Positions 10,872-37,551 of a stretch of 39,246 nucleotides of DNA are shown piece by piece. The translations under genes were made by a program, and so were the position numbers. The notes beneath the pieces were generated by a model that did no database searches, was not told where the DNA came from, and saw only the letters and a program-made list of their open reading frames with translations. Where the stretch lies: assembly GCA_018003315.1 (NCBI GenBank), contig JAGNEJ010000042.1:1-39246 (forward strand), written 5' to 3'. The stretch's first letter is position 1, and every line of letters starts with the position of its first letter. The DNA comes from Verrucomicrobiales bacterium. GTDB taxonomy: Bacteria; Verrucomicrobiota; Verrucomicrobiia; Verrucomicrobiales; V1-33.

Positions 10872-13800
10872 CTACGCTGCCCGCCGCTGGCTGCGCACGA
10901 CCGAACGCCGACCGCGCCAGCCGACGACCCCCAGCAGCAACCCCGCCGCCACCACGGCTCCCGGTTCGGGGACGGGCACCAGGTTGTTGCCAATGAATCC
11001 GGCTCCGCTCCCAATTGGCGTTGTCCCGCCATCACTGTAAAACTGAATGGCAGCCAGGTTGCCCGCTGTCAGAGAGTTGGTGGTGAAGATCAGATCATCG
11101 GGACCATCCGTCCAAATGCTGCCAGACCAGTTCCACACGCTCAACGTGCCGGACCATGTGCCGTTGCTCGCAAACGTCAGGCTCGACCCCGATCCGCTGC
11201 CCATGTCGATCACCGAACTGGAAAGCAACTGAACGACATCCACCGAGTCCGAATTGTTCCCGGTGGCCAGCGTCCCTCCGTTCAGGTCAAGATCGGATGC
11301 ATTATCCAGCACATTGTTGGCCCCCAGCAGCAGCGTCCCGCCGGTGATGGTCGTCTTGCCGGTGTAGGTGTTGGTGCCGGAGAGCGTGAGCGTGCCGGTG
11401 TTGTCCTTGACCAGGTTACCGCCGCCGGAAACCACGCCGGAGAGCGTCTGGTTGGCGGTCGAGTTGACCTTCAAAGTGCCGCTGTTGGCGATGGCTCCCG
11501 CGTAGCTGCCCGATCCCAACTGCCCGGCTCCGCCGATTTCCAGCGTGCCGCCGGAGACGGTGGTCCCACCGGAGAAGGTGTTCACGCCCTTGAGAGTCCA
11601 GGTACCGCTGCCGCTCTTGGTCAGGCCGCCGGTTCCGCTGTTGATGACCTTCTGGAACTCGCCGTTGCCGGTGCCGGTCAGCGTCAGGTTGGGGTTGCTG
11701 TTGTAAACCCACGCGTTGCTGTCGTTGACCGTGTCGATCGTCCAAAGGGCGGAGCCGTTGGCCTCCAGCGTGGCACCGCCGGAACCGATGGTGACGCTGC
11801 GGCCGTAGCTGGTGGCGGTGCTGTTGTTCATGCGGATGGTGCCGCCATCCACCACGAACCGTCCCGCGTTGGCGGAGAGTCCGCCGAGCGAGGCGGTGGA
11901 CTCATCGTAACCCCAATTCTCCAGCTCCAGCGTGCCGCCGGTACCCACGGTGAGGACGGTGCCCGCGCCATTGCCGCTGTAGCCGCCGCGATAGATGCCG
12001 CCGCCGCCGGAGATGCTCAGGGTGCCGTTGCTGACGGTGTAGGCGTTCTTGGCGGTGTTGTTGCCGGTGAGCGTCAGCTTGCCGGTGCCGGTCTTCGTGA
12101 GGCTGCCGCCAGTCATGCTGCCGGCATAGGTGGTGTCCGTGTTCAAGGCTCCTACCGTCAAGGTGGCCGAGCCGGAAATGTTCCCGCCGGTCGCACCGCC
12201 GCCACTGAGCGAGCCGATGCTGGAGTTCTTGGTGACGGCCAGACCGGCACCCGCAGTGTCCGCCAGGGTAAAGACGGTGCTGGTGGCGCTGACGCCCGAG
12301 CCGCCGCCAGCGCTGTAGCCGAAATCGACGATGCCGTTTTGAATGTCGATGGTGCCCGCGTTGATCGTGGTGGTGACCAGGCCGACGGTGTTGCTCCCCT
12401 GCTTGGTCAGCGTGAAGCCGCCGAGGTCGAGATTGGTCGCTGCATAGCCCTGAGCGAGCAGCGCCCAGTTGCCAGAGCCGCCGATCGTGGCATTCGCGGA
12501 CAGCTTGAGGTTGGTGGCTTGCTTCTGCCCGTTGCCGATGCCCGCTCCACTATTGATCAAGGCCCCCGTTCCGGCCGCGCCGGTTCCGGCGATGGTGTAG
12601 CCGTAGGTGGCATCGGCCACGCCGTTGAAATCCACGGTGCCGCCGGAGTTGACGACCACTTTGGTCACTGCCGTGTCAAACGCGCCGAGGGAACTGGTGC
12701 CGCTGGATCCGCCAAGCTTCAGGGTGCCACCGTTGACCGTGGTGGTGCCGGTGTAGCTGTTGGCGGTGGAAATCGTCAGGGTTCCCGCGTTGTTCTTGGT
12801 CAGACCGCCGGTGCCACCGATGCTACCCGTACCGGTGAAGGTGTAGTCATTGGTCGTGTTGTTGACCGTTATCGAACCCGGCGTCACGGCGCTATTGATC
12901 GTGACGATGGCGGGCGCGCCGGGTTCGTTGAAGATCACGTTGTCGCCGTCATAGAAATCCTCGTCGCCTTCCTGCCAGCGGTTTCCGGCGCCGCCTTGTT
13001 CCCAGGTAGCAGTCACGCCGTCCCAGGTGCGGGTCTGCGCGCCGTCGGCGGCGAACTCGATTTTCTGCGCGCCCACGTTGTTCGAGACCGTGCCGTGGGC
13101 GAAAGCCACGACGTTCGTGGTCGAGAAGTTCGTCAACGCACCCGCGCCGTAGGTCACCACATCGTAGGTGGTGGCGGCGACGGGGGCCGTGAGGAAGCGG
13201 ATGGTGGTGCCGCCCGCGGTGTTGGCGAAGGTCACGCCGTTGGAGGTCAGCGAGGTGGTGCTGCCGCCGCCGGCCAGCGAGATCGAAGCGCCGGATTCGG
13301 TGGTCAGCAGGCCGGTGGTCGAGCCGGTGCCGGAAATGGCGGCTCCGCTGGCAACCGTGGTGGCGGAGGTGAGCGAACCGGTGAGATTGAGGCGACCGGC
13401 CTTGACCGTGGTCGCGCCGGTGTAGGTGTTGGTGCCAGAGAGAGTGAGGACCTGTGTTCCCGCGCCGGTAATGGCTGCGGCGGTGGTGCCGCCGACGTTC
13501 ACCACGCCCGTGCCGGAGATGGTGTTGTTCACCGTGTGCGCGTTGCTGCGGGAGAAGGTGAGCGAACCGTTGTTGGTCACGCTGGCGGTGCCGAGCGTGC
13601 CGCCGGTACCGGCATTGAGCGAAGTGTCATTGCCGGTCACGCCGCCGACGCGGAGATTGCCGCTGGAGGCGATGGTGATGGTGCCGCTCATGGTGTTCGC
13701 CCCGGTCAGAATGAAGCCGTTGTTGGCGTCCATCCGGTTCGAACTGTCGTTGATGTTGAGATTGCCGCTGCCGGAGATGATGCCCTGGAGCTTCAGCGCG

Positions 13801-14558
13801 CGGGTCGTGCCGCTGCCGTTGAAGTCGTCGAAGGTCGAGGTGGTGGAGGTGTTGAGCGTGATGTTGTTCGTCCAGGTCCAGTTGCCTTGCTGCTGACCGA
13901 GCGTGCCGCCGTCCATGGTGATGGTGCCGGTGCCCCAGGCATTGATGCCGTTGCGGAGATTCCTGACGGAGGTGTTCGCTCCGATCGTCCAGTTGCCCGT
14001 GTAACCCGACGCTCCACCCTGGGCGGTGAAATCGGTGGAGTTGTTTTGGCCGAGGTTGAGGGTAAAGGTGGCGGTGCCCGAGCCGGCTTGCGCGAGGCTG
14101 ATATTGCCGGAACCGGTCAGTGTGCGGTTCGTGTTGATCGTGTGAAGCGTCAGGGTGCGGCCACCGTTGACGGTCCAAATCTGCGCGGCGCCGGCGACGA
14201 TGTTGCCGTTGAGGAGAAGATTTTGCGTAGCGGTCGACATGTCGATGCCCGAGGCACCCAACGTCAGATTTTCGGTGGCACCGGTGGTGCCGATGGTCAC
14301 CGTTCCTCCCGGGTTGGTAATTTTGATGCCCGCCCAATCGAGATTGGCACCGTAGGCGGTGGAGTTCGCTGCGGTCACGGTGTTGTTCCACACGGCGACA
14401 TCGGCGTTGGTCGGGGCGACACCGCCGACCCACGAAGTGGTGAGGTTGAGCGCGTCGGTGTCGTTGTCCTTGGTGACATCCCCGGCGTATGCCTGCAATG
14501 CCAGGAACACGGCGGCGAATTCAAGAGAACGGCGACGGTAGAGGTTTCGGGATTTCAT
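10872..14558 (-). CDS. Autotransporter-associated beta-strand-repeat protein with PEP-CTERM tail
   Basis: 1228 residues from the ATG at 14558 (M-K-S-R-N-L-Y-R-R-R-S), which gives a proper signal peptide ending near A-Y-A-G. The body is Gly/Thr/Asn-rich beta-helix. At least five copies of the family repeat occur, of the form L-T-L-S-G-T-N-T-Y-T-G-x-T-T-V-x-x-G-x-L. The C-terminus is V-P-V-P-E-P-G-A, a hydrophobic stretch and an Arg-rich end: a PEP-CTERM signal, normally recognised by an exosortase elsewhere in the genome. There is no C-terminal beta-barrel, so it cannot transport itself despite the domain name. The likely role is a surface or exopolysaccharide-associated fibre. It is a paralogue of the upstream gene at 14720-17776. 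Confidence 0.88.
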   Translation of the reverse strand: MKSRNLYRRRSLEFAAVFLALQAYAGDVTKDNDTDALNLTTSWVGGVAPTNADVAVWNNTVTAANSTAYGANLDWAGIKITNPGGTVTIGTTGATENLTLGASGIDMSTATQNLLLNGNIVAGAAQIWTVNGGRTLTLHTINTNRTLTGSGNISLAQAGSGTATFTLNLGQNNSTDFTAQGGASGYTGNWTIGANTSVRNLRNGINAWGTGTITMDGGTLGQQQGNWTWTNNITLNTSTTSTFDDFNGSGTTRALKLQGIISGSGNLNINDSSNRMDANNGFILTGANTMSGTITIASSGNLRVGGVTGNDTSLNAGTGGTLGTASVTNNGSLTFSRSNAHTVNNTISGTGVVNVGGTTAAAITGAGTQVLTLSGTNTYTGATTVKAGRLNLTGSLTSATTVASGAAISGTGSTTGLLTTESGASISLAGGGSTTSLTSNGVTFANTAGGTTIRFLTAPVAATTYDVVTYGAGALTNFSTTNVVAFAHGTVSNNVGAQKIEFAADGAQTRTWDGVTATWEQGGAGNRWQEGDEDFYDGDNVIFNEPGAPAIVTINSAVTPGSITVNNTTNDYTFTGTGSIGGTGGLTKNNAGTLTISTANSYTGTTTVNGGTLKLGGSSGTSSLGAFDTAVTKVVVNSGGTVDFNGVADATYGYTIAGTGAAGTGALINSGAGIGNGQKQATNLKLSANATIGGSGNWALLAQGYAATNLDLGGFTLTKQGSNTVGLVTTTINAGTIDIQNGIVDFGYSAGGGSGVSATSTVFTLADTAGAGLAVTKNSSIGSLSGGGATGGNISGSATLTVGALNTDTTYAGSMTGGSLTKTGTGKLTLTGNNTAKNAYTVSNGTLSISGGGGIYRGGYSGNGAGTVLTVGTGGTLELENWGYDESTASLGGLSANAGRFVVDGGTIRMNNSTATSYGRSVTIGSGGATLEANGSALWTIDTVNDSNAWVYNSNPNLTLTGTGNGEFQKVINSGTGGLTKSGSGTWTLKGVNTFSGGTTVSGGTLEIGGAGQLGSGSYAGAIANSGTLKVNSTANQTLSGVVSGGGNLVKDNTGTLTLSGTNTYTGKTTITGGTLLLGANNVLDNASDLDLNGGTLATGNNSDSVDVVQLLSSSVIDMGSGSGSSLTFASNGTWSGTLSVWNWSGSIWTDGPDDLIFTTNSLTAGNLAAIQFYSDGGTTPIGSGAGFIGNNLVPVPEPGAVVAAGLLLGVVGWRGRRSVVRSQRRAA

Positions 14559-14641
14559 GGCTGGGGTCCGGGTTGGCGTTTGGCTATGCGGGGCAAGCGG
14601 TGGGTTTGTGCCTGATATTTGCCGTGGGGGGGCCGGGGTGG

Positions 14642-14669
14642 ATTCTCCCACGGGCCGACAGGATGTCAA
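14642..14669 (-). promoter_or_regulatory. Promoter for the PEP-CTERM beta-strand-repeat gene
   Basis: On the minus strand a perfect TTGACA (14664-14669) is followed by a 16-bp spacer and GAGAAT (14642-14647, four of six -10 matches). The start would lie near 14635, giving a leader of about 77 nt. This suggests the gene is transcribed separately from its upstream paralogue. Confidence 0.5.
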
Positions 14670-14719: not shown

Positions 14720-17700
14720 TTACGGGCCGGTGACGTTGAGGCGGGCGAATTTCTTGGGCGGCCCGGCGGCGGGGAAGGTGAAGGTGAGGTCGTTGCCGCT
14801 GAGGGTGACGCTGCCGCCGCCGGGTTCGTCAGTCCACGGGCCGGCAAGGGTGGTGGAGGTCTGGACGGTGAAGTGGGTGCCGTAGGTGCCGGTGTAGCCG
14901 GCGGCTTTGGTCCAGGTGACGCTGAGGGTGCCGGCGTTGTTGACGACGCCAGGCAGGACGGTGAAGCCGGTGGTGTTGGTGCTGCCGCCCAGGAAGTATT
15001 CCACTCCGTTGGCGACGCCGTCGCGATCGTGGTCCTGGTCGATGCTTCCGGCGGTGCCGTTGGCGGCGGCCCAGGCGCTGTAGCCGCTGCCGCCAGCGGG
15101 CTGGAGGACGAGGGTGTTGCCGCCGGTGACGGCGAGTTCGTAGCCGGGCACGGCGGGGTGGAGCACGGGCGAGCCGGTGATGGCCGCGGTGGTGGTGAGC
15201 AGGGTGTAAACCGTGGGGGCGGCGGCGGTGCCGGTGATGGCGACCCGGGCCCCGGCGGTGAAGTCCACGGTGGCGGTGGAGGTGGTGGGGGAGTCGAGGG
15301 CGAAGCCGAGGGAACCCGCGCTGTTGACGATGATGGGGGAGGTCTGGCTGCCGCCGACGAGGGCGAGCGTGCCGCCGTTGACGGTGGTGGGGCCGGTGTA
15401 GGTATTGGCTCCGGTGAGGGTCATGGTGCCGGCACCCATTTTCGTGAGGGAGCCGACGCCAAAGGCATTGGCGGAGCCGGAATAGTCGCCGGAGCCGTCG
15501 CGCAAGGGTGCGGTGACGAGCAGGTCCGGGGAGGCGTCGCCAGTGGTGTCGGCTACGTCAAACGTGGTGGTGCGTCCGCCCGCGAGGTGGTTGGCTTTTC
15601 CGTTGCCGGTGGTGATGGAGGAAGTCCCGGTGCCGGAAACGGTGACGGTGCCGCCGATGAATTCGTATCCGTTGTAGGCTCCGTTGTCGGTGGAGGACTG
15701 GGTGAGGGTGGCTCCGTTCTGCAGGGTGACGTGGCCGAGGATGTTGAACCGGGTGGCTTGGAGGGTGGCTGCGTTGACCACCACAGAGGGGATGCCGGAC
15801 GGGGATTTTCCGCTGCCGCCAAACTGATTGTTGGCATTGAAGTTGACCACGGTGCCGACATTTTCAATGGTCAGGGTGCGGCTGCCGTTGACGGCGCCGA
15901 AATACCCGCCGACGCCGTCGCCCATGGTGGCTCCGGTATTCACGATGCCGCCGCTGATGGTGGCGTTGCCGGTGAACCGGTGGCCTTTGTTACCGAGGGT
16001 GAGCGCACCGGCTCCGGTCTTGGTGAGGCCGCCAGGGCCGCTGATGACTCCGGCTCCGTCGAGCAGGTAGGCATTGGCGGTGTTGGAAATGGTGAGGGAA
16101 GCGACGGTGACGCTGGCGGGCAGGGTGACGGTGGCCAGAGCGGCGGGTTCGGGGAAGGTGACGCTGTCCCAGTTGAAGAAGTCCTGGTCGCCCTCCAGCC
16201 AGAGGTTGGTGGAGTCGCCGATGACCCAGTTGCCGGTGCTCCCGTTCCAGGTGCGGGACTGCGGACCAGCGGCGGTGAATTGGATTTTCTGCGCCCCGGT
16301 GTTGTCGGTGAGCACCCCGCGGGCGTTGGCGGTGAGGCCCGGAAAATTCGTCACGCCGCCGGCGCCGTAGGTCGCCACGTCATACACGGCGGCGGCCACG
16401 GGAGCGCTGAGGAAGTCCACCGCGGCGGTGGCGGCGACATTCAGGCCGTTGGCCACCAGCGAAGTGGTGCTGCCACCGCCTGCCAGGACCACGGTGGCAC
16501 CGGCATTGAGGGTGAGCAGTTCGGTGGTCGAGCCGGTGCCGGACAAGCTGGCGGTGGCATTGACCGTGATGGCGGAGGTGAGCGTGCCAGTGAGGTGGAG
16601 CCGCCCGGCTTGGACCGTGGTGGGCCCGGCGTAGGTGTTGACGCCGGAAAGCGTGAGCACCTGGCCTTCGTCATTGGCGAATGAGCCGCCCACGTTGACG
16701 CTGCCGGGGCCGGAAATGGGATTGCCCACGGTGTGGGCGTCGCTGCGGGAAAAGGTGAGGGCGGCGGTGGCGTCGCTGAGGTTGACGCTGGCGGTGCCGA
16801 GACTGCCGCTGGGGCCGGCGGTGAGGGTGTTGTTGGCGCCGGTGACGCCGCCGACGCGCACATTGCCGCTGGGACCGATGGTGAGAGTGCCGCTGAGGGT
16901 GTTGGCTCCGGCGAGGATGAATCCGCTGTTGGCGTCCATCCGGTTGCTGGAATCGTTGAAAATCACATTGCCGTCACCGGAGAGCACGCCCTGGAGTTTC
17001 AGGGTGCGGGTGGAGCTGTTGGTGTTAAAATCGTCAAAGGTGGACGTGGTGCCAGTGGCGAGGATGATCGGGTTCGCCCAGGTCCAGTTTCCCTGTTCCT
17101 GGCCAATGGTGCCGCCGTTGAGGGTAATGGTGCCCTGGCCGAAGGCGTGGGTGCCGTTGCGCAGGCCGCGCAGGGTGCCGCTGGTGACGGTCCAGTTGCC
17201 GGTAAAGGTGTCGTTGGCATTGCCGGCGGCAAACGTCGTGGACCCGGCATCGCCGGTGAGCAGCCGGACCACGCCGCCACCGGTGATTTCAATGTTTCCG
17301 GAGCCGGTGAGGGCCTGGTTCTGCTTGTTCGAAGTGGCGAACAGCTTCAGGGTGCGGCCCGCGGCGACATTCCACGTCTGGTTGGTGGCGATGGCGACGG
17401 TGCCGGCGGTATCGGCCGAGCTGAGCAAATTGAGATCCTGGGTTGCGGAAGAAAGGTCGATGCCCGCAGTGCGGAGGGTGAGGTTTTCACCGGCGGCGTG
17501 GGTGACGGTGATGGCGCCGGCAGGATCCGCAACCCGGATGCCCAGCCAGTCTGCATTGCCGCCCAGGGCGGAGGCGTTCGCACCGGTCACGGTGGCATTC
17601 CACACGGCGATGTCGAACTCGCCGGGAATGACATCAAACGGTCCGGGAGCGTCCAGCCACGACGAACCGAGGCTGAGCGCGTCGGTGTTGTTGTCCTTGA

Positions 17701-17776
17701 TGACGTCCGCTGCGCAAAGCGGGAACGCGGCGGCGAGAGTGGCGGTCAGGAGGAGGCTGGGACGCGGGCGGTTCAT
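14720..17776 (-). CDS. Autotransporter-associated beta-strand-repeat protein with D-x-D / RLNVT C-terminal module
   Basis: 1018 residues from the ATG at 17776 (M-N-R-P-R-P-S), giving a signal peptide ending near L-C-A-A-D. After cleavage it is collinear with the neighbouring protein (D-V-I-K-D-N-N-T-D-A-L versus D-V-T-K-D-N-D-T-D-A-L), showing a tandem duplication. At least three repeats of the L-T-L-x-G-x-N-T-Y-x-G-x-T-T-V type are visible. The last ~120 residues differ completely from the paralogue. They comprise a calcium-type D-Q-D-H-D-R-D-G-V-A-N-G-V-E-Y-F-L-G motif, a beta-rich region and the ending F-A-R-L-N-V-T-G-P. The same module ends the subtilisin at 35157-36893. Predicted secreted or cell-surface structural protein. 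Confidence 0.87.
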   Translation of the reverse strand: MNRPRPSLLLTATLAAAFPLCAADVIKDNNTDALSLGSSWLDAPGPFDVIPGEFDIAVWNATVTGANASALGGNADWLGIRVADPAGAITVTHAAGENLTLRTAGIDLSSATQDLNLLSSADTAGTVAIATNQTWNVAAGRTLKLFATSNKQNQALTGSGNIEITGGGVVRLLTGDAGSTTFAAGNANDTFTGNWTVTSGTLRGLRNGTHAFGQGTITLNGGTIGQEQGNWTWANPIILATGTTSTFDDFNTNSSTRTLKLQGVLSGDGNVIFNDSSNRMDANSGFILAGANTLSGTLTIGPSGNVRVGGVTGANNTLTAGPSGSLGTASVNLSDATAALTFSRSDAHTVGNPISGPGSVNVGGSFANDEGQVLTLSGVNTYAGPTTVQAGRLHLTGTLTSAITVNATASLSGTGSTTELLTLNAGATVVLAGGGSTTSLVANGLNVAATAAVDFLSAPVAAAVYDVATYGAGGVTNFPGLTANARGVLTDNTGAQKIQFTAAGPQSRTWNGSTGNWVIGDSTNLWLEGDQDFFNWDSVTFPEPAALATVTLPASVTVASLTISNTANAYLLDGAGVISGPGGLTKTGAGALTLGNKGHRFTGNATISGGIVNTGATMGDGVGGYFGAVNGSRTLTIENVGTVVNFNANNQFGGSGKSPSGIPSVVVNAATLQATRFNILGHVTLQNGATLTQSSTDNGAYNGYEFIGGTVTVSGTGTSSITTGNGKANHLAGGRTTTFDVADTTGDASPDLLVTAPLRDGSGDYSGSANAFGVGSLTKMGAGTMTLTGANTYTGPTTVNGGTLALVGGSQTSPIIVNSAGSLGFALDSPTTSTATVDFTAGARVAITGTAAAPTVYTLLTTTAAITGSPVLHPAVPGYELAVTGGNTLVLQPAGGSGYSAWAAANGTAGSIDQDHDRDGVANGVEYFLGGSTNTTGFTVLPGVVNNAGTLSVTWTKAAGYTGTYGTHFTVQTSTTLAGPWTDEPGGGSVTLSGNDLTFTFPAAGPPKKFARLNVTGP

Positions 17777-17841
17777 GGAGGTCGGGATGTTTAACCGGAG
17801 ATGAAACCACGCGCCCGCGGATCGGGAAACCACGCAACACT

Positions 17842-30646: not shown

Positions 30647-31330
30647 ATGAAAATTCTGCTGGTTGAAGATTACGTCCCGCTGCGCACCTCCATCGCGAAG
30701 ATGCTGCAGGAAAATGGATTTGTGGTGGATGAAAGCGGGGACGGACTGGAAGCCCAGGATATGGCCACCCGAAACAACTACACGGTGGCCGTGATCGACA
30801 TCATGCTGCCAGGCTTGGACGGGCTTGCCGTGCTGCGGGCGCTGCGCGAGGCGGGGAAAAGCACCGCAGTGCTCATCATCACGGCGCGGGATGCCGTCGA
30901 TGACCGGGTCAGGGGACTGGATGCCGGCGCGGACGATTATCTGGTAAAGCCCTTTGCGCTGGATGAATTGCTGGCCCGCGTGCGGGCACTGCTGCGCCGC
31001 GCCCACCAGGTGCGCGATCCCATCCTGCGCGTCGGAGATCTGGAAATCGACACGCTGCGGCGGGAAGCACGGCGCGCGGGGCAGACGCTGGAACTGACCT
31101 CGAAGGAATATGCGCTGCTGGAACTGCTGGCCCTGCGAACCGGACAGGTGGTCAGCCGCAGCGACGTCTGGGAGCAGCTCTACGATTTCGACCAGGAAAT
31201 GGAGAGCAACGTGATCGATGTCTTCGTCGCCTACCTCCGCAAAAAACTGGAGCGTCCTGGGCTGACCCGACTGATCCACACCCGCCGCGGCCAGGGCTAC
31301 ATTCTGGAGGACCGGCCGGAGGAAGCCTAG
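30647..31330 (+). CDS. OmpR/PhoB-family response regulator
   Basis: 227 residues. The receiver domain (1-118) has the acidic pair E7-D8, the phospho-acceptor D51 in V-I-D-I-M-L-P-G-L-D-G-L, T79 in I-I-T-A-R-D, and K101 in D-Y-L-V-K-P-F. The winged-helix domain (about 128-222) has L-E-L-T-S-K-E-Y-A-L-L-E-L-L and S-N-V-I-D-V-F-V-A-Y-L-R-K-K, then H-T-R-R-G-Q-G-Y. It is first in a plus-strand run with the cognate kinase 27 bp downstream, followed by the TPS/subtilisin genes, so those exported proteins are its probable targets or at least co-expressed. A TTGACC at 30594-30599 is a possible -35 but lacks a good -10. Confidence 0.95.
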   Translation: MKILLVEDYVPLRTSIAKMLQENGFVVDESGDGLEAQDMATRNNYTVAVIDIMLPGLDGLAVLRALREAGKSTAVLIITARDAVDDRVRGLDAGADDYLVKPFALDELLARVRALLRRAHQVRDPILRVGDLEIDTLRREARRAGQTLELTSKEYALLELLALRTGQVVSRSDVWEQLYDFDQEMESNVIDVFVAYLRKKLERPGLTRLIHTRRGQGYILEDRPEEA

Positions 31331-31357
31331 CAGGGACACTCGTCCATCCGCCGTCCC

Positions 31358-32872
31358 ATGGCCCGCAGGCTGCTGCCCCGCTCCTTCAAATACCGCCTGC
31401 TGCTGGCGTTTTTTCTGGGGCTGTTCGCGGTGGGTGCGGCCAGCGGTTATCTGTCCTACCGGCTCATCGCCCGCTACACCTGGACGGGTTTTGACAGCCT
31501 GCTGGTGGACAAGCTGGAATTCTACAAATCCACCCTCTTCTTCAACGAAAAGGGCCGCCCCGGATGGCACATGGGCGAGGCGGACTGGGACCGGGTCATG
31601 GATGCAAAGGACCCTGACTATTTTGTCTTCCGCTATCCGGACGGCCGCTTCATCGGAAAATCCCCCACCCTGGGCGACGCCGGGCTGCCCCGGCTGGGCA
31701 TCCACGGTGAAGCCCCGGAATTTTATGACATCAAACTGCCAAACGGCCGCCCCGGGCGAGCCGTGGGTGCGCTGCGCAGCGTGCAGTTTTATCCGCACAG
31801 TCCGCAGCGGACCGACGCGCGTCCGGTGCCGGTCCATCTGGTGGTGGCCCGCAGCACCAGCAGTGCGGAACAAACTCTGCACCGGCTGGTGGTCCTGCTG
31901 TGGCAGGCTGGAGCGGTGGCAATGACCGCCCTGCTCGGTACGGCCTTCCTCATCATCCGCCGCAGTGTGCGCCCGGTGGGACAGTTGGAGCTGCAGATAG
32001 AATCAATGCCGCTGGCCGACCCCCGGCAGCGTTTTCGGCTGAAGGGGGCCTCTGCGGAAATGGAGAAAGTGGTGGGTCGGCTCAATGCACTGATGGACCG
32101 GGTGGGGGCCGCCATCGAACACGAACGCCAGTTCACCTCCAATGCAGCCCACGAGCTGCGCACACCGCTGGCCGGAATGCGTTCGGCCATTGAGTTGGCA
32201 TTGAACCGGCCGCGCAAGCCCGAGGAATACGAGGAGACGCTGCTGCAGCTCCAGGAAATCCAGGCCAAACTGCAGCGGCTCACCGACAATCTCCTGCTGC
32301 TGGCACGCCTGGAAAGCGGGCAGCGGGAATTCCCCCGCGAAGAGGCCGACCTGGGAAAATTTGTCAGGAAGGCCTGGAAACCGTTCTTCGATCCGGCGGC
32401 GGAAAAGGAACTGCGCCTGCTCTGGCAAATCGCCCCCCAGCCGGCTCCCGTGGTGCTGCCGGTGACGCTGCTGGAGATCGTGCTGCGCAATCTCTATCAG
32501 AACGCGGTGGATTACACCCCCCGCGGCGGGGAAATTGAAATCTCTGGGCGGGTGACGGATGGCCAGTGCGAACTGCGCGTCAGCAATGCGAATCCGGGAG
32601 TCCGGCTGGAACAACTCCCCAATCTGTTCCAGCCATTCTGGCGGGCGGATCAGAGCGGCGATCCCAACCAGGTGAGAACAGGAATCGGCCTGGCCCTGTG
32701 CCGGCGCATCCTGACCACACTCGACGGGCAGATTGCCGCGGAAATGGACGCGGCTGGGCGGTTTTCCATCGCACTCCATTTTCCGCTGGCGGACAGCGGA
32801 AAAAAACCTGGAGAAATCTTGCCAGCCGGAACCGCCGCCTGCGATGCTGGGAAAGGAACACCCGAACCATGA
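31358..32872 (+). CDS. Membrane sensor histidine kinase
   Basis: 504 residues. Membrane helix 1 spans about 12-35, a periplasmic sensor about 36-176 of no recognised fold, helix 2 about 178-200. A HAMP-like linker (about 200-255) carries R-R-S-V-R-P-V-G-Q-L. HisKA has phospho-acceptor H265 in N-A-A-H-E-L-R-T-P-L-A-G. The HATPase domain has the N box L-Y-Q-N-A-V-D-Y-T-P (N382), an F box near F-Q-P-F-W-R, and the G2 box T-G-I-G-L-A-L-C-R-R-I. It should autophosphorylate and pass phosphate to the upstream response regulator. The last ~25 residues form a Pro/Gly/Cys-containing extension beyond the ATPase domain. The stop overlaps the next ATG (ATGA). Confidence 0.95.
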   Translation: MARRLLPRSFKYRLLLAFFLGLFAVGAASGYLSYRLIARYTWTGFDSLLVDKLEFYKSTLFFNEKGRPGWHMGEADWDRVMDAKDPDYFVFRYPDGRFIGKSPTLGDAGLPRLGIHGEAPEFYDIKLPNGRPGRAVGALRSVQFYPHSPQRTDARPVPVHLVVARSTSSAEQTLHRLVVLLWQAGAVAMTALLGTAFLIIRRSVRPVGQLELQIESMPLADPRQRFRLKGASAEMEKVVGRLNALMDRVGAAIEHERQFTSNAAHELRTPLAGMRSAIELALNRPRKPEEYEETLLQLQEIQAKLQRLTDNLLLLARLESGQREFPREEADLGKFVRKAWKPFFDPAAEKELRLLWQIAPQPAPVVLPVTLLEIVLRNLYQNAVDYTPRGGEIEISGRVTDGQCELRVSNANPGVRLEQLPNLFQPFWRADQSGDPNQVRTGIGLALCRRILTTLDGQIAAEMDAAGRFSIALHFPLADSGKKPGEILPAGTAACDAGKGTPEP

Positions 32873-33597
32873 ACCAGCCAAGCCCATTTCCCGCCCCCAC
32901 CGAAAACCGACTGCACCAACTGGAACTGGCGCGCCATGCCAAGGCAGGCAAAGCGCTGGCAGTGCTGGCGGAAAACAACGAAGCAGACAGCCCTCCCGAG
33001 GAGGACGTCCCTCCGGTGCCGGACCACCTGCGCTCGCGATGGCAGGAAGCGTATGCCCCACGTCCCGCCGTGCCAGCGGGGGCTCCGCGCGAATCGCTGC
33101 TCGCACACTTCGGCCAGGCGCTGCGCCACCTGCTGGAGCCGCGGCAGCTCGCCCTTGCCGGCGGCGTGGCTGTCGCGGTCCTGGCCCTGACATTGTTCCT
33201 CACACGACCGGGAGGAGGCGAATCCGGTGCAGGCACCGGGACCGAAGGAGTGGTGGTGCGGGGCGGAAAATCAGTGACGGCACCGGCGGATTACCTGCTG
33301 CTGCTGGTGCCCCCGGCAGCAGGCGGAACGGAATTTGTCAGGGAATTCAATCTCAACTGGTCAAAACCCGTCGCAGAAATCATTCCCTCCGCAGCCGCCG
33401 TGCAGGAGATGGTTTCGCGGCCCGGATTCAACCACGCCGTGGTGCTGGCGGACCTTCCGTCCGGTGAGGTTTCCCTCTGGATAAATGGCGCCGTGGCGCA
33501 GCGCTGGCCCCTTTCCGGCAGCAGCGCAGAGGAACTGCTCGACAGCGCGGTTTCACAGATCGAATCCGCTGCCAGAACCCTCAACCCGCCCCGTTAG
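32869..33597 (+). CDS. Single-pass membrane protein of unknown function in the TCS-TPS operon
   Basis: 242 residues, ATG overlapping the kinase stop. I do not recognise a family. The N-terminal ~92 residues are cytoplasmic by prediction, charged and Pro-rich, with a helix L-H-Q-L-E-L-A-R-H-A-K-A-G-K. One membrane segment (about 94-112, L-A-G-G-V-A-V-A-V-L-A-L-T-L-F-L) is followed by a Gly-rich linker. A ~110-residue periplasmic part has alternating strands (Y-L-L-L-L-V-P, then H-A-V-V-L-A-D-L-P-S-G-E-V-S-L-W-I-N-G). The layout resembles anti-sigma or periplasmic-adapter proteins but no motif proves this. Translational coupling to the kinase and direct abutment to the translocator gene suggest it serves one of them. 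Confidence 0.75.
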   Translation: MNQPSPFPAPTENRLHQLELARHAKAGKALAVLAENNEADSPPEEDVPPVPDHLRSRWQEAYAPRPAVPAGAPRESLLAHFGQALRHLLEPRQLALAGGVAVAVLALTLFLTRPGGGESGAGTGTEGVVVRGGKSVTAPADYLLLLVPPAAGGTEFVREFNLNWSKPVAEIIPSAAAVQEMVSRPGFNHAVVLADLPSGEVSLWINGAVAQRWPLSGSSAEELLDSAVSQIESAARTLNPPR

Positions 33598-35144
33598 GTG
33601 ACCCACCGCGGTGCCAGACAGACCTTGCAGCGCCACCCTAACAGGTTTGGACGAGTTGGCCGAAGTTGCTGGTTCTGGCTGCTGGGGATTTCCTCCCTCC
33701 CTCTGCCCGCACAGGATCTCCTGCAGGAAATTCGATTTTCCGGAGCCTCACCCACACGGGAGGCGGGTCTGAGGCAGCGACTGGGAGAGTTCCTGCATCG
33801 TCCGGTCACACAGGAAAACCTCGATGCCCTGACCGGGGTCATCGTTGAGGATTACCGCCAGCATGACGTGCCGGTCGTGGATGTTTCCGCTGTGGTGGAG
33901 AATGGAATCGTCACCGCCGTGATCACCGAAGGCCGGGTCGGCAACATCACCATCGTGGGTGGCCCGGCGTGCGTCCACCGGTCCGTGACCCGGGACTGGC
34001 GTCGCCTGGCGGGCAAACCGCTGCGGCTTTCGCACCTGACCGACGCCCTGAACTGGCTGCACCGCAACCCCATGCACGCGCCACGCTGCGCCTCAAGCCT
34101 GGAGACGAAACCGCCGTGGCGGACCTCACCCTGGACCTGCAGAATTCACGCCGCACCAGGTTTTCCTCCGGCTATCTCAATGACGGCATCGCACCGCTTT
34201 CCGAACACCGGTTTTTTGCGGGCGTCGAGGGCTCCGACTGGTTCGGCCTCCCCTGGTGGTTCACCGGGCAGTTTTTCATGGATGCGGACGTTTCTTCCTA
34301 TCATTCCGCACAGGTGGCGCAGCGCTTCTTCCTGCCCTGGCATCATGAACTGCGACTCTACGGCGCCTGGACCCGGGCCGTGGTGGATGGCGAAATTGCC
34401 GCGCCGCTGGACTCCTCCACGGCAGAAAGCTGGCAGGCCTCCGCCCGCTATCTGGTGCCGCTCCCGGCCTGGAAACGCTGGAAAACGGATGCCGGCATCG
34501 GCATCGACCTCCGGCGCACCAACAACAACGTGGAATTCGGCGGAACCTCGCTGGGCGGCGATGCGGACATCATCCAGTTCGCGGGGGAAATTTCCTCCGA
34601 ACGCCACACTGAAAAATCGGATTCCGGCTGGCGCTTCGAGGGCATTTACAGCCCCGGCAACCTGACAACGAATCAGACCGATGCAGTGCACAACGATTTC
34701 CGCCCCGGTGCGCAGGCGGATTACCTCCTTGGCAGGGCCGCTCTTTGGCATCGGCAATGGCTCGGGGAATGGAGCGTGACTGGACGTGTCAGCGGGCAGG
34801 TTGCCAGCGCTCCGGTGTTGCCAAGCGAACAGATCGGTCTTGGCGGATCGTATGCGATCCGGGGATTTCCGGAAGCGACGTTTCTCGGAGACACCGGATG
34901 CTGGGGCAGCTTGGAAATCCAGGCACCGCAATGGGAATGGCACAAACTGCAAATGCAGCCGGTGGTCTTTGCCGAGGGCGGCTGGGTGCATGATGCGGCA
35001 CGCCATGAGGATGCCAGCCCGGCCGGTGCGGGGTGCGGCATCCGCCTGCAGTGGGGCCGACATGTTTCGTGCAATGCCGACTATGCCTGGCGTCTGACCG
35101 AGCCCGGAGGACGTTTTCATGTGGCAATCCGGATGGAATTCTAG
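33598..35144 (+). pseudogene. TpsB/FhaC/ShlB-type outer-membrane translocator, disrupted by a frameshift
   Basis: Two-partner-secretion transporters use periplasmic POTRA domains and a 16-strand barrel to export a TpsA partner. The GTG at 33598, directly after the previous stop, opens a frame with a signal peptide (ending L-P-L-P-A-Q), a first POTRA (L-L-Q-E-I-R-F-S-G-A, E-D-Y-R-Q-H-D-V-P-V) and the start of a second (V-G-N-I-T-I-V-G-G, A-L-N-W-L-H-R-N-P-M-H). The similarity then jumps at about 34078-34083 into another frame (A-T-L-R-L-K-P-G-D-E-T), which continues through the barrel to 35144, including G-S-Y-A-I-R-G-F-P, the conserved R-G-[FY] barrel motif. A single missing base explains it. 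Rejoined, the protein is ~515 residues, normal for TpsB. It could be a real mutation or a sequencing error. Confidence 0.8.
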
Positions 35145-35156
35145 CAGACTGCCGCC

Positions 35157-36893
35157 ATGCATCTCCCAGTGCCAACTCTCCTGCCGGCCGCGATGCTGCT
35201 CCTGGTCCTTGCGCCGGAAGCCCGCGCCCAGCAGGAACAGCGCTACTACGTCAGGCCCCGCTCCATTGCGGATTTGAACCACGGCATCCTGCTGCAAACC
35301 GTCACCACAGTGAGTACCCGCGTGGTGAAGGAAATCAACAAACCCAAATTCCGCTTCAACGCGGTGGCCGTGGAAATGACCACCGCACAACAACAGAGTC
35401 TGGCGGACAACAATCCAGGCCTCCTGGTGATCCCCGACGCTCCACTGGCCCGCAGCGGACATTTCGGCGGTCCAGGCAGCAACTGGGCGATCAATTCCCT
35501 GACAGCCTCGGGATTCCCCAACGGTGAAGACTGCTGCGGGCAGCGTCCGGTCGTTTACCTCGTGGACACCGGCATCCGCCAGACGCATTCCGAGTTTTCC
35601 GCCACCACGTTCCTCCCCGGCATGACCGAAGGATGGAACTACAACCTAAGCGTGCCAACGCCCCCGGATCAGGATTTGTACGATCACGGAACCCGCATGG
35701 CCGGATGCATCGCCGGCGCCTCCACCGGACTGCTCCCGAAGCTGGGCGTGTCCGCCTATCTCAAATCCATCCAAGCCTACGATTTTCCCGCGCCGTTGGC
35801 GACGACGTTTGCCAGTACTGCCATCGCTGCACTGCTCGACGCCGCCTCCGATCACGAAATCCGAAAATCCACCGGCTACGTAAAGGACCATGCCAGCATC
35901 GTCCTCTTTGCGCAGTCCACCCTGCCCAGCAGCGGGCGATTCGGCGACGTGGACCGGGCCATTGAGGAAGTCTGGAATTCTGGACTGACCGTAGTCGTAT
36001 CGGCTGGAAACTATTCCGTGCTGGCCGCGGATGTTTCCCCTGCAGGCGCTGCCATTGGCTACCTGCCGCCAAATGCCCCGGCGCCGCCACCGACCATCAT
36101 CGTGGATCCGGGTCATTACTGGTTTGGCCCGAAACCTCCCGGAACCAACTATGTGCGCTGGCTGCCGCATTTCATTGTTGCGGGCGCGCACGACTGGGAC
36201 TTTTTGCTCTGGGCCAGCACGGACGTCAACAATCCCGCCGTCGATCCCGTGGATGTTTTCGGCCCGGGTGCCGGTATCCGCTGCGCGACCAATGCCGCCG
36301 ACGTTTCCTTCGGCAGCGGAGACGGCACCAGCTATGGCGCGGCCTATGCCGCAGCCACCGCGGCTTTTCTGGGCTATCACAAACCCTGGCTGACACCAAA
36401 CGAAATCCGCACTGCACTCATCGCCGCCCGCATCTCCTCGGGCCCCAACTGGAGCCGCCTGGCCATTCCCGCAACCCTCCCGGACATCGGCATGACCTTC
36501 GCCGACTGGGCCGCACATTACGGCCTTGCCGACCCGGACGCCGCCGCCAGCGCGGATTCCGACGCCGATCTGCTGCCGAACCTGCTCGAATACTTCTGCG
36601 GACTCTCGCCCCGCGAAAACAACTGGGCCAACGCCCCGTCCATCACGCCGAACGCCGCTGCCAGTCGCCTGGACATCCGCCTCCCAGTAGCCTGTTACCT
36701 GCCCACGTCCGTCAGCCTGATCCTCCAGAAAAGCTCCGACCTGATCACCTGGATGCCGCTGCCCATGACCACCTTCGCGGTGGAAAACCCGTGCCATGCC
36801 GTCGGAGATGGCCGCTATTTTTCCGGCACGGCTCCATTCACTCCTGTTAGCGGAGGTCGGGAGTTTTACCGCCTCAAAGTCACCGCGCCGTAG
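35157..36893 (+). CDS. Secreted subtilisin-like (S8) serine peptidase
   Basis: 578 residues with a signal peptide (1-24, ending A-R-A). Residues ~28-100 look like an inhibitor-type propeptide. The catalytic triad is clear: Asp137 in V-V-Y-L-V-D-T-G-I, His177 in Y-D-H-G-T-R-M-A-G, Ser392 in G-D-G-T-S-Y-G-A-A-Y-A, with the oxyanion Asn285 in V-V-V-S-A-G-N. The final ~130 residues are a separate module with D-S-D-A-D-L-L-P-N-L-L-E-Y-F-C-G-L-S-P, a beta-rich part and F-Y-R-L-K-V-T-A-P at the end, shared with the beta-strand-repeat protein at 14720-17776. It starts 12 bp after the translocator gene. It could be an exported partner or a processing protease for a TPS substrate, as SphB1 is for FHA in Bordetella (analogy only). 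Confidence 0.93.
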   Translation: MHLPVPTLLPAAMLLLVLAPEARAQQEQRYYVRPRSIADLNHGILLQTVTTVSTRVVKEINKPKFRFNAVAVEMTTAQQQSLADNNPGLLVIPDAPLARSGHFGGPGSNWAINSLTASGFPNGEDCCGQRPVVYLVDTGIRQTHSEFSATTFLPGMTEGWNYNLSVPTPPDQDLYDHGTRMAGCIAGASTGLLPKLGVSAYLKSIQAYDFPAPLATTFASTAIAALLDAASDHEIRKSTGYVKDHASIVLFAQSTLPSSGRFGDVDRAIEEVWNSGLTVVVSAGNYSVLAADVSPAGAAIGYLPPNAPAPPPTIIVDPGHYWFGPKPPGTNYVRWLPHFIVAGAHDWDFLLWASTDVNNPAVDPVDVFGPGAGIRCATNAADVSFGSGDGTSYGAAYAAATAAFLGYHKPWLTPNEIRTALIAARISSGPNWSRLAIPATLPDIGMTFADWAAHYGLADPDAAASADSDADLLPNLLEYFCGLSPRENNWANAPSITPNAAASRLDIRLPVACYLPTSVSLILQKSSDLITWMPLPMTTFAVENPCHAVGDGRYFSGTAPFTPVSGGREFYRLKVTAP

Positions 36894-36905: not shown

Positions 36906-36928
36906 GGCTCATCCCGGATTCGTGTGGG
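36906..36928 (+). repeat. Left terminal inverted repeat of the ISL3 remnant
   Basis: 23 bp beginning GGCTCATCCCGGA and ending GTGTGGG, 13 bp after the subtilisin stop codon. It matches the right repeat with three mismatches. Confidence 0.75.
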
Positions 36929-36946
36929 CAAAAGTCTGCAAATCGG

Positions 36947-36960
36947 TTTTTTTTTTTTTT
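36947..36960 (+). repeat. T14 homopolymer ahead of the transposase fragment
   Basis: Fourteen consecutive T residues, immediately followed by a good Shine-Dalgarno sequence GAGGAG (36961-36966), eight bases before the transposase ATG at 36975. Length may vary by slippage. Confidence 0.7.
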
Positions 36961-36974
36961 GAGGAGATGGGAGC

Positions 36975-37551
36975 ATGCCTGCGAAAGACCTCGCACAGAT
37001 GCTGGACCTGACGAAACCTTGGCATGTTGCTGCTTTGGAGATGGACCCTGCGGCCCGCACGGTGCGGCTGCGTGGGGAGTGTGCGGCGGCGGGAGCACGC
37101 AGAGTTGCCAGCGCAGGGCGATACCACCCTGACCAGCACGAAGTATCGGTGGCTGGCCACCCCCCTGAATTTGAGTTCTGAGAAACTCCCCCGCTTCAAA
37201 GCCCTGACGCGGCTCCCGCTGAAGACATCACGGGTCTGGGAAATCAAGGAACGCTTCGGCGGATTCTGGGAGCAGGACGACCCACTGCAGGAGGACGACT
37301 ATTTTGCGAAGTGGCATCGCCGCACCCAGCGCTGCCGCCTGGAGCCAATGAAGCAACTCGGGCGCCGCTTCAAATCCAGCCTGCCGCGATGGCTCAACGG
37401 GTTTGCCAACCCCATCAGCAACGCCCTGGCCGAAGGCTTCAACAGGGTGATCCAAGCCATCAAATCCGCCGCCAGAGGGTTCCGCAACTTTGCACACTAC
37501 CGCGTCCGTATTCTCTTCCTCCTCGGGAAACTCGACCTCTCTTTGCCGTAG
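36975..37551 (+). pseudogene. ISL3-family transposase remnant
   Basis: The N-terminal piece from the ATG at 36975 reads M-P-A-K-D-L-A-Q-M-L-D-L, P-W-H-V-A-A-L-E-M-D, the usual start of ISL3 transposases, and is lost by about 37085. The C-terminal piece runs in another frame from about 37125 to the stop at 37551. It contains K-Y-R-W-L, L-K-T-S-R-V-W-E-I-K-E, F-W, and the family-typical S-N-A-L-A-E-G-F-N-R-V-I-Q-A-I-K with G-F-R-N-F-A-H-Y-R-V-R-I. The last catalytic Glu region is present, but the zinc-finger and first Asp regions of the ~400-residue protein are missing. It is therefore non-functional. Confidence 0.85.

Follow-up and report, generated by a model that had tools for sequence, protein, structure and literature searches.

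Five genes in a row on the plus strand of a Verrucomicrobiales contig place a two-component pair in front of an outer-membrane translocator and a secreted protease, which raises the question of what such a run does and whether its members belong together. The window analysed here is the entire contig (C105; 39,246 bp) of a 5.09-Mb genome in 155 contigs. The run opens with an OmpR-family response regulator (RR; 30647..31330; Response_reg and Trans_reg_C), for which the nearest NCBIfam model is of the heavy-metal CzcR/CopR type, with a score under that model's cut-off. By Pfam domain content this regulator adjoins a membrane histidine kinase (HK; 31358..32872; HisKA and HATPase_c), as in a two-component system. 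A protein with one transmembrane (TM) segment and no Pfam match (32869..33597), labelled a membrane adapter in the preliminary description, is followed by a TpsB region (33598-35144) and a secreted S8 subtilase with a signal peptide (35157..36893; Peptidase_S8, 56.8 bits against a cut-off of 21.8). The spacing claimed earlier for these five genes was confirmed throughout (27 bp, an ATGA overlap, exact abutment and 12 bp), and a terminator-like element, a hairpin with a run of T behind it, lies after the S8 gene (36923..36960, plus strand). Elsewhere in the window, the minus strand encodes two large repeat proteins with the appearance of autotransporter repeats (10872-14669 and 14720-17833), the first bearing a PEP-like C-terminal sorting motif.

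We found the five-gene order in no relative; only the TM-TpsB-S8 part is kept. HK orthologues (33-54% identical) occur in seven relatives (G001, G009, G007, G005, G002, G003 and G035), and none of the RR/HK loci there has the TM protein, TpsB or S8 alongside, indicating that the five-gene unit is not conserved. The two-component pair is therefore a local addition in front of TM-TpsB-S8, seen as a five-gene unit only in the window. The earlier proposal of signal-controlled surface proteolysis or secretion survives insofar as a regulated surface or secretion module with a protease is supported, but the conserved regulator is a sigma/anti-sigma-like pair rather than the two-component pair, which lies outside the conserved module. 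The pair occupies the place that the sigma gene has in relatives, and in the window organism it probably drives or co-drives transcription of TM-tpsB-S8.

A six-gene module in Verrucomicrobiales

The TM protein, TpsB and S8 of the window belong to a larger secretion module of Verrucomicrobiales made up of an ECF-like sigma factor, the one-TM protein, TpsB, the S8 subtilase, a TPR-CHAT caspase-like protease and a short TpsA. All six genes lie within 20 kb at about 15 loci (G001, G033, G098, G109, G123, CALGLJ, CALGMJ and eight held-out loci described below), the TpsA of G033 being identified through its tail and not through a profile. In G001, of the same genus as the window organism, one strand carries sigma, TM protein, TpsB, S8, TPR-CHAT and short TpsA in that order. 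The module of G007 is split, with TpsA, sigma and TM protein on one contig and TpsB, S8 and CHAT on another. Three public metagenome-assembled genome (MAG) loci (CALGLJ010000011, CALGMJ010000205 and JAHDGN010000099) each carry TpsA, sigma, TM protein, S8 and CHAT, and the first two also carry TpsB.

Profile models built from the first set of loci were then tried on 26 further sigma loci, from which three loci on the same contigs as the public MAG loci had been left out. The TM protein gene was adjacent to sigma in 25/26 of these held-out loci, the exception being cut by a contig end; a short TpsA was present in 20 and the complete set in 8. When the same models were run on 142 kb of control DNA, mostly RR/HK orthologue neighbourhoods, no match to sigma, TM protein, TpsB or TpsA was found, and the control gave one weak S8 match and one TPR-type CHAT match. 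The sigma family occurs in 44 of 387 genomes and 14 of 50 genera of Verrucomicrobiales (genome counts that are not independent events), and no member was detected outside the order among 388 genomes of the phylum, with the best five candidates per genome scored. By eye, no seventh gene family recurs in the module loci, and a search for a shared motif upstream of module genes returned no gapped 9-mer exceeding shuffles.

Several further loci were recorded in the course of this survey. G123 holds three sigma/TM/TpsA/CHAT sets (L091, L144 and L145), which suggests paralogous systems with separate signals. Relatives in the family (L043, L045 and L046) carry a second TPS-type cluster in which TpsB precedes a DUF2341-LamG-ExbB fusion. 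ExbD-like genes come after the fusion, joined in L045 by a Porin_5 gene; Pfam assignments for this cluster cover the fusions and the porin only. The 18369-bp contig of the MAG record L138, titled Akkermansia muciniphila, corresponds to C92 of G007 and is placed in the window's family; the title looks wrong.

Components of the module

The module sigma of this genome, encoded on C21, is 59-60% identical to that of G007. It has no Pfam match, and its TIGR02937 score (16.7 bits) is under the cut-off of 42.9; module sigmas give weak matches to NCBIfam sigma70-ECF models. In an AlphaFold model of the C21 protein (pLDDT 85.6), residues 98-316 align with ECF sigma factors. The best fold match was E. 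coli sigmaE (6jbq_F; Z 9.9, with Foldseek E-values that are weak taken alone), in a list dominated by sigma factors that also held SigW, AlgU, SigK and 1or7. The overall rmsd of the sigmaE alignment is high because the sigma-2 and sigma-4 domains fit separately. On the strength of this model, the module sigma is an ECF-like sigma factor with predicted sigma-2 and sigma-4 folds; since it falls below the sequence cut-offs, we name it by fold and place it in no named ECF group.

In relatives the one-TM protein gene almost always lies directly downstream of the sigma gene; the window copy has no sigma beside it. Its product has a cytoplasmic N-terminal part with a PPxP motif, a TM segment at about residues 91-111, a linker with a conserved Arg and a periplasmic alpha/beta domain. 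No anti-sigma domain was detected in it with Pfam or NCBIfam, and a fold search with the periplasmic domain gave only weak thioredoxin-like or tRNA-synthetase matches. From its position and topology, we regard it as a putative anti-sigma factor.

The preliminary description noted that no usual TpsA partner is adjacent to the translocator. In this genome the TpsA is unlinked to the window genes: C131 encodes a 419-aa TPS-domain protein (PF05860, 42.1 bits against a cut-off of 33.5; TIGR01901, 32.2 against 29.1) that is 38% identical to the short TpsA of G007. The short TpsAs are about 360-430 aa long. Behind a signal peptide (recognised by eye) they carry a TPS domain, and their tail is rich in Lys/Arg and bears an S-F-F motif. 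Both Phe residues of the tail are invariant in 18/18 aligned rows, and SFF or SLF was found in 19 of 20 held-out tails, the twentieth open reading frame (ORF) not ending at the true C-terminus. A 1400-aa TpsA of the same genome, encoded on C104 beside its own TpsB, has no S-F-F tail. In a tree, the TpsB proteins of the window and of G007 are sisters within the module TpsB clade, and the C104 TpsB falls outside that clade. By elimination, and from this placement of TpsB, the C131 protein is most likely the missing partner. A frame resembling the window's ISL3 transposase (see below) lies near the start of the C131 contig.

The window S8 subtilase is 38.7% identical to the S8 beside TpsB in G007. 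Its VDTG, DHGT, GTS and SAGN motifs align, so that the Asp/His/Ser triad and the oxyanion Asn are present, and by eye its C-terminal domain resembles those of verrucomicrobial secreted proteins. The triad is intact in most module members, and the catalytic Asp is lost in the S8 proteins of CALGLJ, CALGMJ and JAHDGN, indicating that S8 catalysis is not essential everywhere. Where the Asp is lost (S8 genes recorded at L140, L142 and L143), a Gly stands in its place and His and Ser are kept. Members lacking the Asp may be pseudoproteases retained in the module, judging from these alignments. The CHAT protein of this genome (C36) scored 132.7 bits against PF12770 (cut-off 24) with His and Cys aligned, a pair kept in 19/19 aligned proteins.

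Dispersal, the tpsB reading frame and competing explanations

The six components are spread over four contigs in the window organism, with sigma on C21, CHAT on C36, TpsA on C131 and TM-TpsB-S8 on C105. We found one each of sigma, TM protein, CHAT and short TpsA in this genome; the C21, C36 and C131 genes have unrelated neighbours, and all three have intact ORFs. The window holds a dispersed, possibly broken copy of the module.

The translocator gene itself was borne out only in part, as a ShlB-type barrel is present (PF03865, 57.7 bits against 22.7) but not in one ORF. Two ORFs, each in its own frame, make up the stretch (33598-34665 and 33969-35144). The first frame encodes a signal peptide and a POTRA-like region (33598..34073; POTRA_2, 15.8 bits, E=0.012, below the cut-off of 24), which precedes the frame change, and the second encodes the ShlB/FhaC beta-barrel (34074..35144). 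The coding frame changes at approximately 34070..34075, at a run of four C, so that the gene as assembled does not encode one continuous TpsB. The tpsB genes of relatives are single open frames. The change may be a true mutation or an assembly error, as a single-base error gives the same picture. We also considered a programmed frameshift, which is not favoured given that homologous tpsB genes run uninterrupted in one frame, though the C run may permit slippage.

Taking gene content, linkage, folds, motifs, dispersal and the broken tpsB frame as observed, we consider it probable that TM-TpsB-S8 is here the remnant of a dispersed two-partner secretion module under sigma/anti-sigma control, with dedicated proteases. 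The ECF-like sigma would be held by the TM protein encoded beside it and, upon a signal, would transcribe tpsA and, directly or indirectly, the remaining module genes. TpsB in the outer membrane would export the miniature TpsA via its N-terminal TPS domain, and the secreted S8 and the TPR-CHAT protease would act on TpsA, probably at the basic C-terminal S-F-F tail.

With its tpsB frameshifted, the system at this locus may be non-functional, or the locus may be misassembled. That the locus is a decaying leftover and no longer a working secretion system is a possibility of lower standing, compatible with the module explanation as such. The frame change, the spread over four contigs and a truncated ISL3-family transposase (37024-37551), 130 bp downstream and right after the S8 terminator, fit such decay. 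The barrel frame is nevertheless open for more than 1 kb, the S8 triad is kept, sigma, CHAT and TpsA are retained intact, and an assembly error of one base would look identical.

An extension of the module reading, which we regard as speculative and rather unlikely, is a self-monitoring secretion circuit in which the TPS system serves as a signal transducer. The miniature TpsA would keep its S-F-F tail in the periplasm until its export is finished. S8, CHAT or both would cut this tail or else the TM protein within its periplasmic domain, and sigma would thereby be released in answer to a surface signal or to the state of secretion. A role in anti-phage defence found no informative PADLOC match.

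The first proposal for this locus was that the two-component system governs surface proteolysis and that TpsB exports the subtilisin. The close spacing of the genes, the fact that a terminator-like hairpin and its long T run occur only behind S8, and the known two-component control of other TPS systems, as by BvgAS (PMC5422565), speak for it. However, the gene order is not conserved, and S8 carries no TPS domain and in relatives often lies on the strand opposite tpsB, which makes it an unlikely TpsB passenger, while a module TpsA with a TPS domain exists in the genome. We therefore do not favour TpsB as the exporter of the subtilisin and consider the proposal as a whole very unlikely; of the two roles first offered for the protease, exported or processing component, the second may apply. 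It is equally hard to credit that the six families adjoin merely as common envelope genes of Verrucomicrobiales with no shared pathway: the components are split in G000, G007, G088, G091 and G126, and both S8 and CHAT occur widely, but the linkage recurs in several families of Verrucomicrobiales with many gene arrangements and orientations, control neighbourhoods lack the core families, and the tail motif that module TpsAs have in common is missing from the large C104 TpsA.

Relation to known two-partner secretion systems

The module shares with two-partner secretion (type Vb; FHA/FhaC, ShlA/ShlB) a ShlB-barrel TpsB with a putative POTRA-like region and a TpsA with a TPS (haemagglutinin N-terminal) domain. 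It differs in the size of its TpsA and the conserved tail, and in clusters that include a sigma factor, a TM protein and two protease-family genes; according to a review of TPS systems, maturation protease genes apparently lie outside TPS operons (PMC5422565). In Pseudomonas aeruginosa, the PUMA3 system (VreA-VreI-VreR) places the PdtAB TPS locus under an ECF sigma and anti-sigma (PMC2729926; PMC5422565). The proposed control of a TPS locus is the same, as judged from gene organisation, whereas the shared set in Verrucomicrobiales has no receptor-like gene as far as seen by eye and has S8 and CHAT instead. Bordetella SphB1, an autotransporter subtilisin encoded away from fhaB/fhaC, matures FHA (PMC5422565) and offers a parallel for a subtilisin as a possible TpsA maturation protease; in contrast, the module S8 shows no autotransporter domain and clusters with tpsB. 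A protease is likewise linked to a TpsB in P. aeruginosa LepA/LepB, but LepA is itself the TpsA passenger of LepB (PMC5422565), unlike the module S8.

The preliminary description presented the system as one not known, and the open-access literature searched agrees, holding neither the six-gene combination, nor the tail motif of the miniature TpsA, nor a clustered CHAT; no open-access paper was found that combines 'two-partner secretion' with 'CHAT domain'. The S-F-F motif is apparently unreported and the six-gene module apparently undescribed, its novelty lying at the module level of two-partner secretion. Within a single recurrent unit stand two protease families unrelated to each other, a TPS pore with a miniature exported protein, and a sigma/anti-sigma-like pair; substrate, tail and regulators are open to experiment in a phylum where secretion has received little study.
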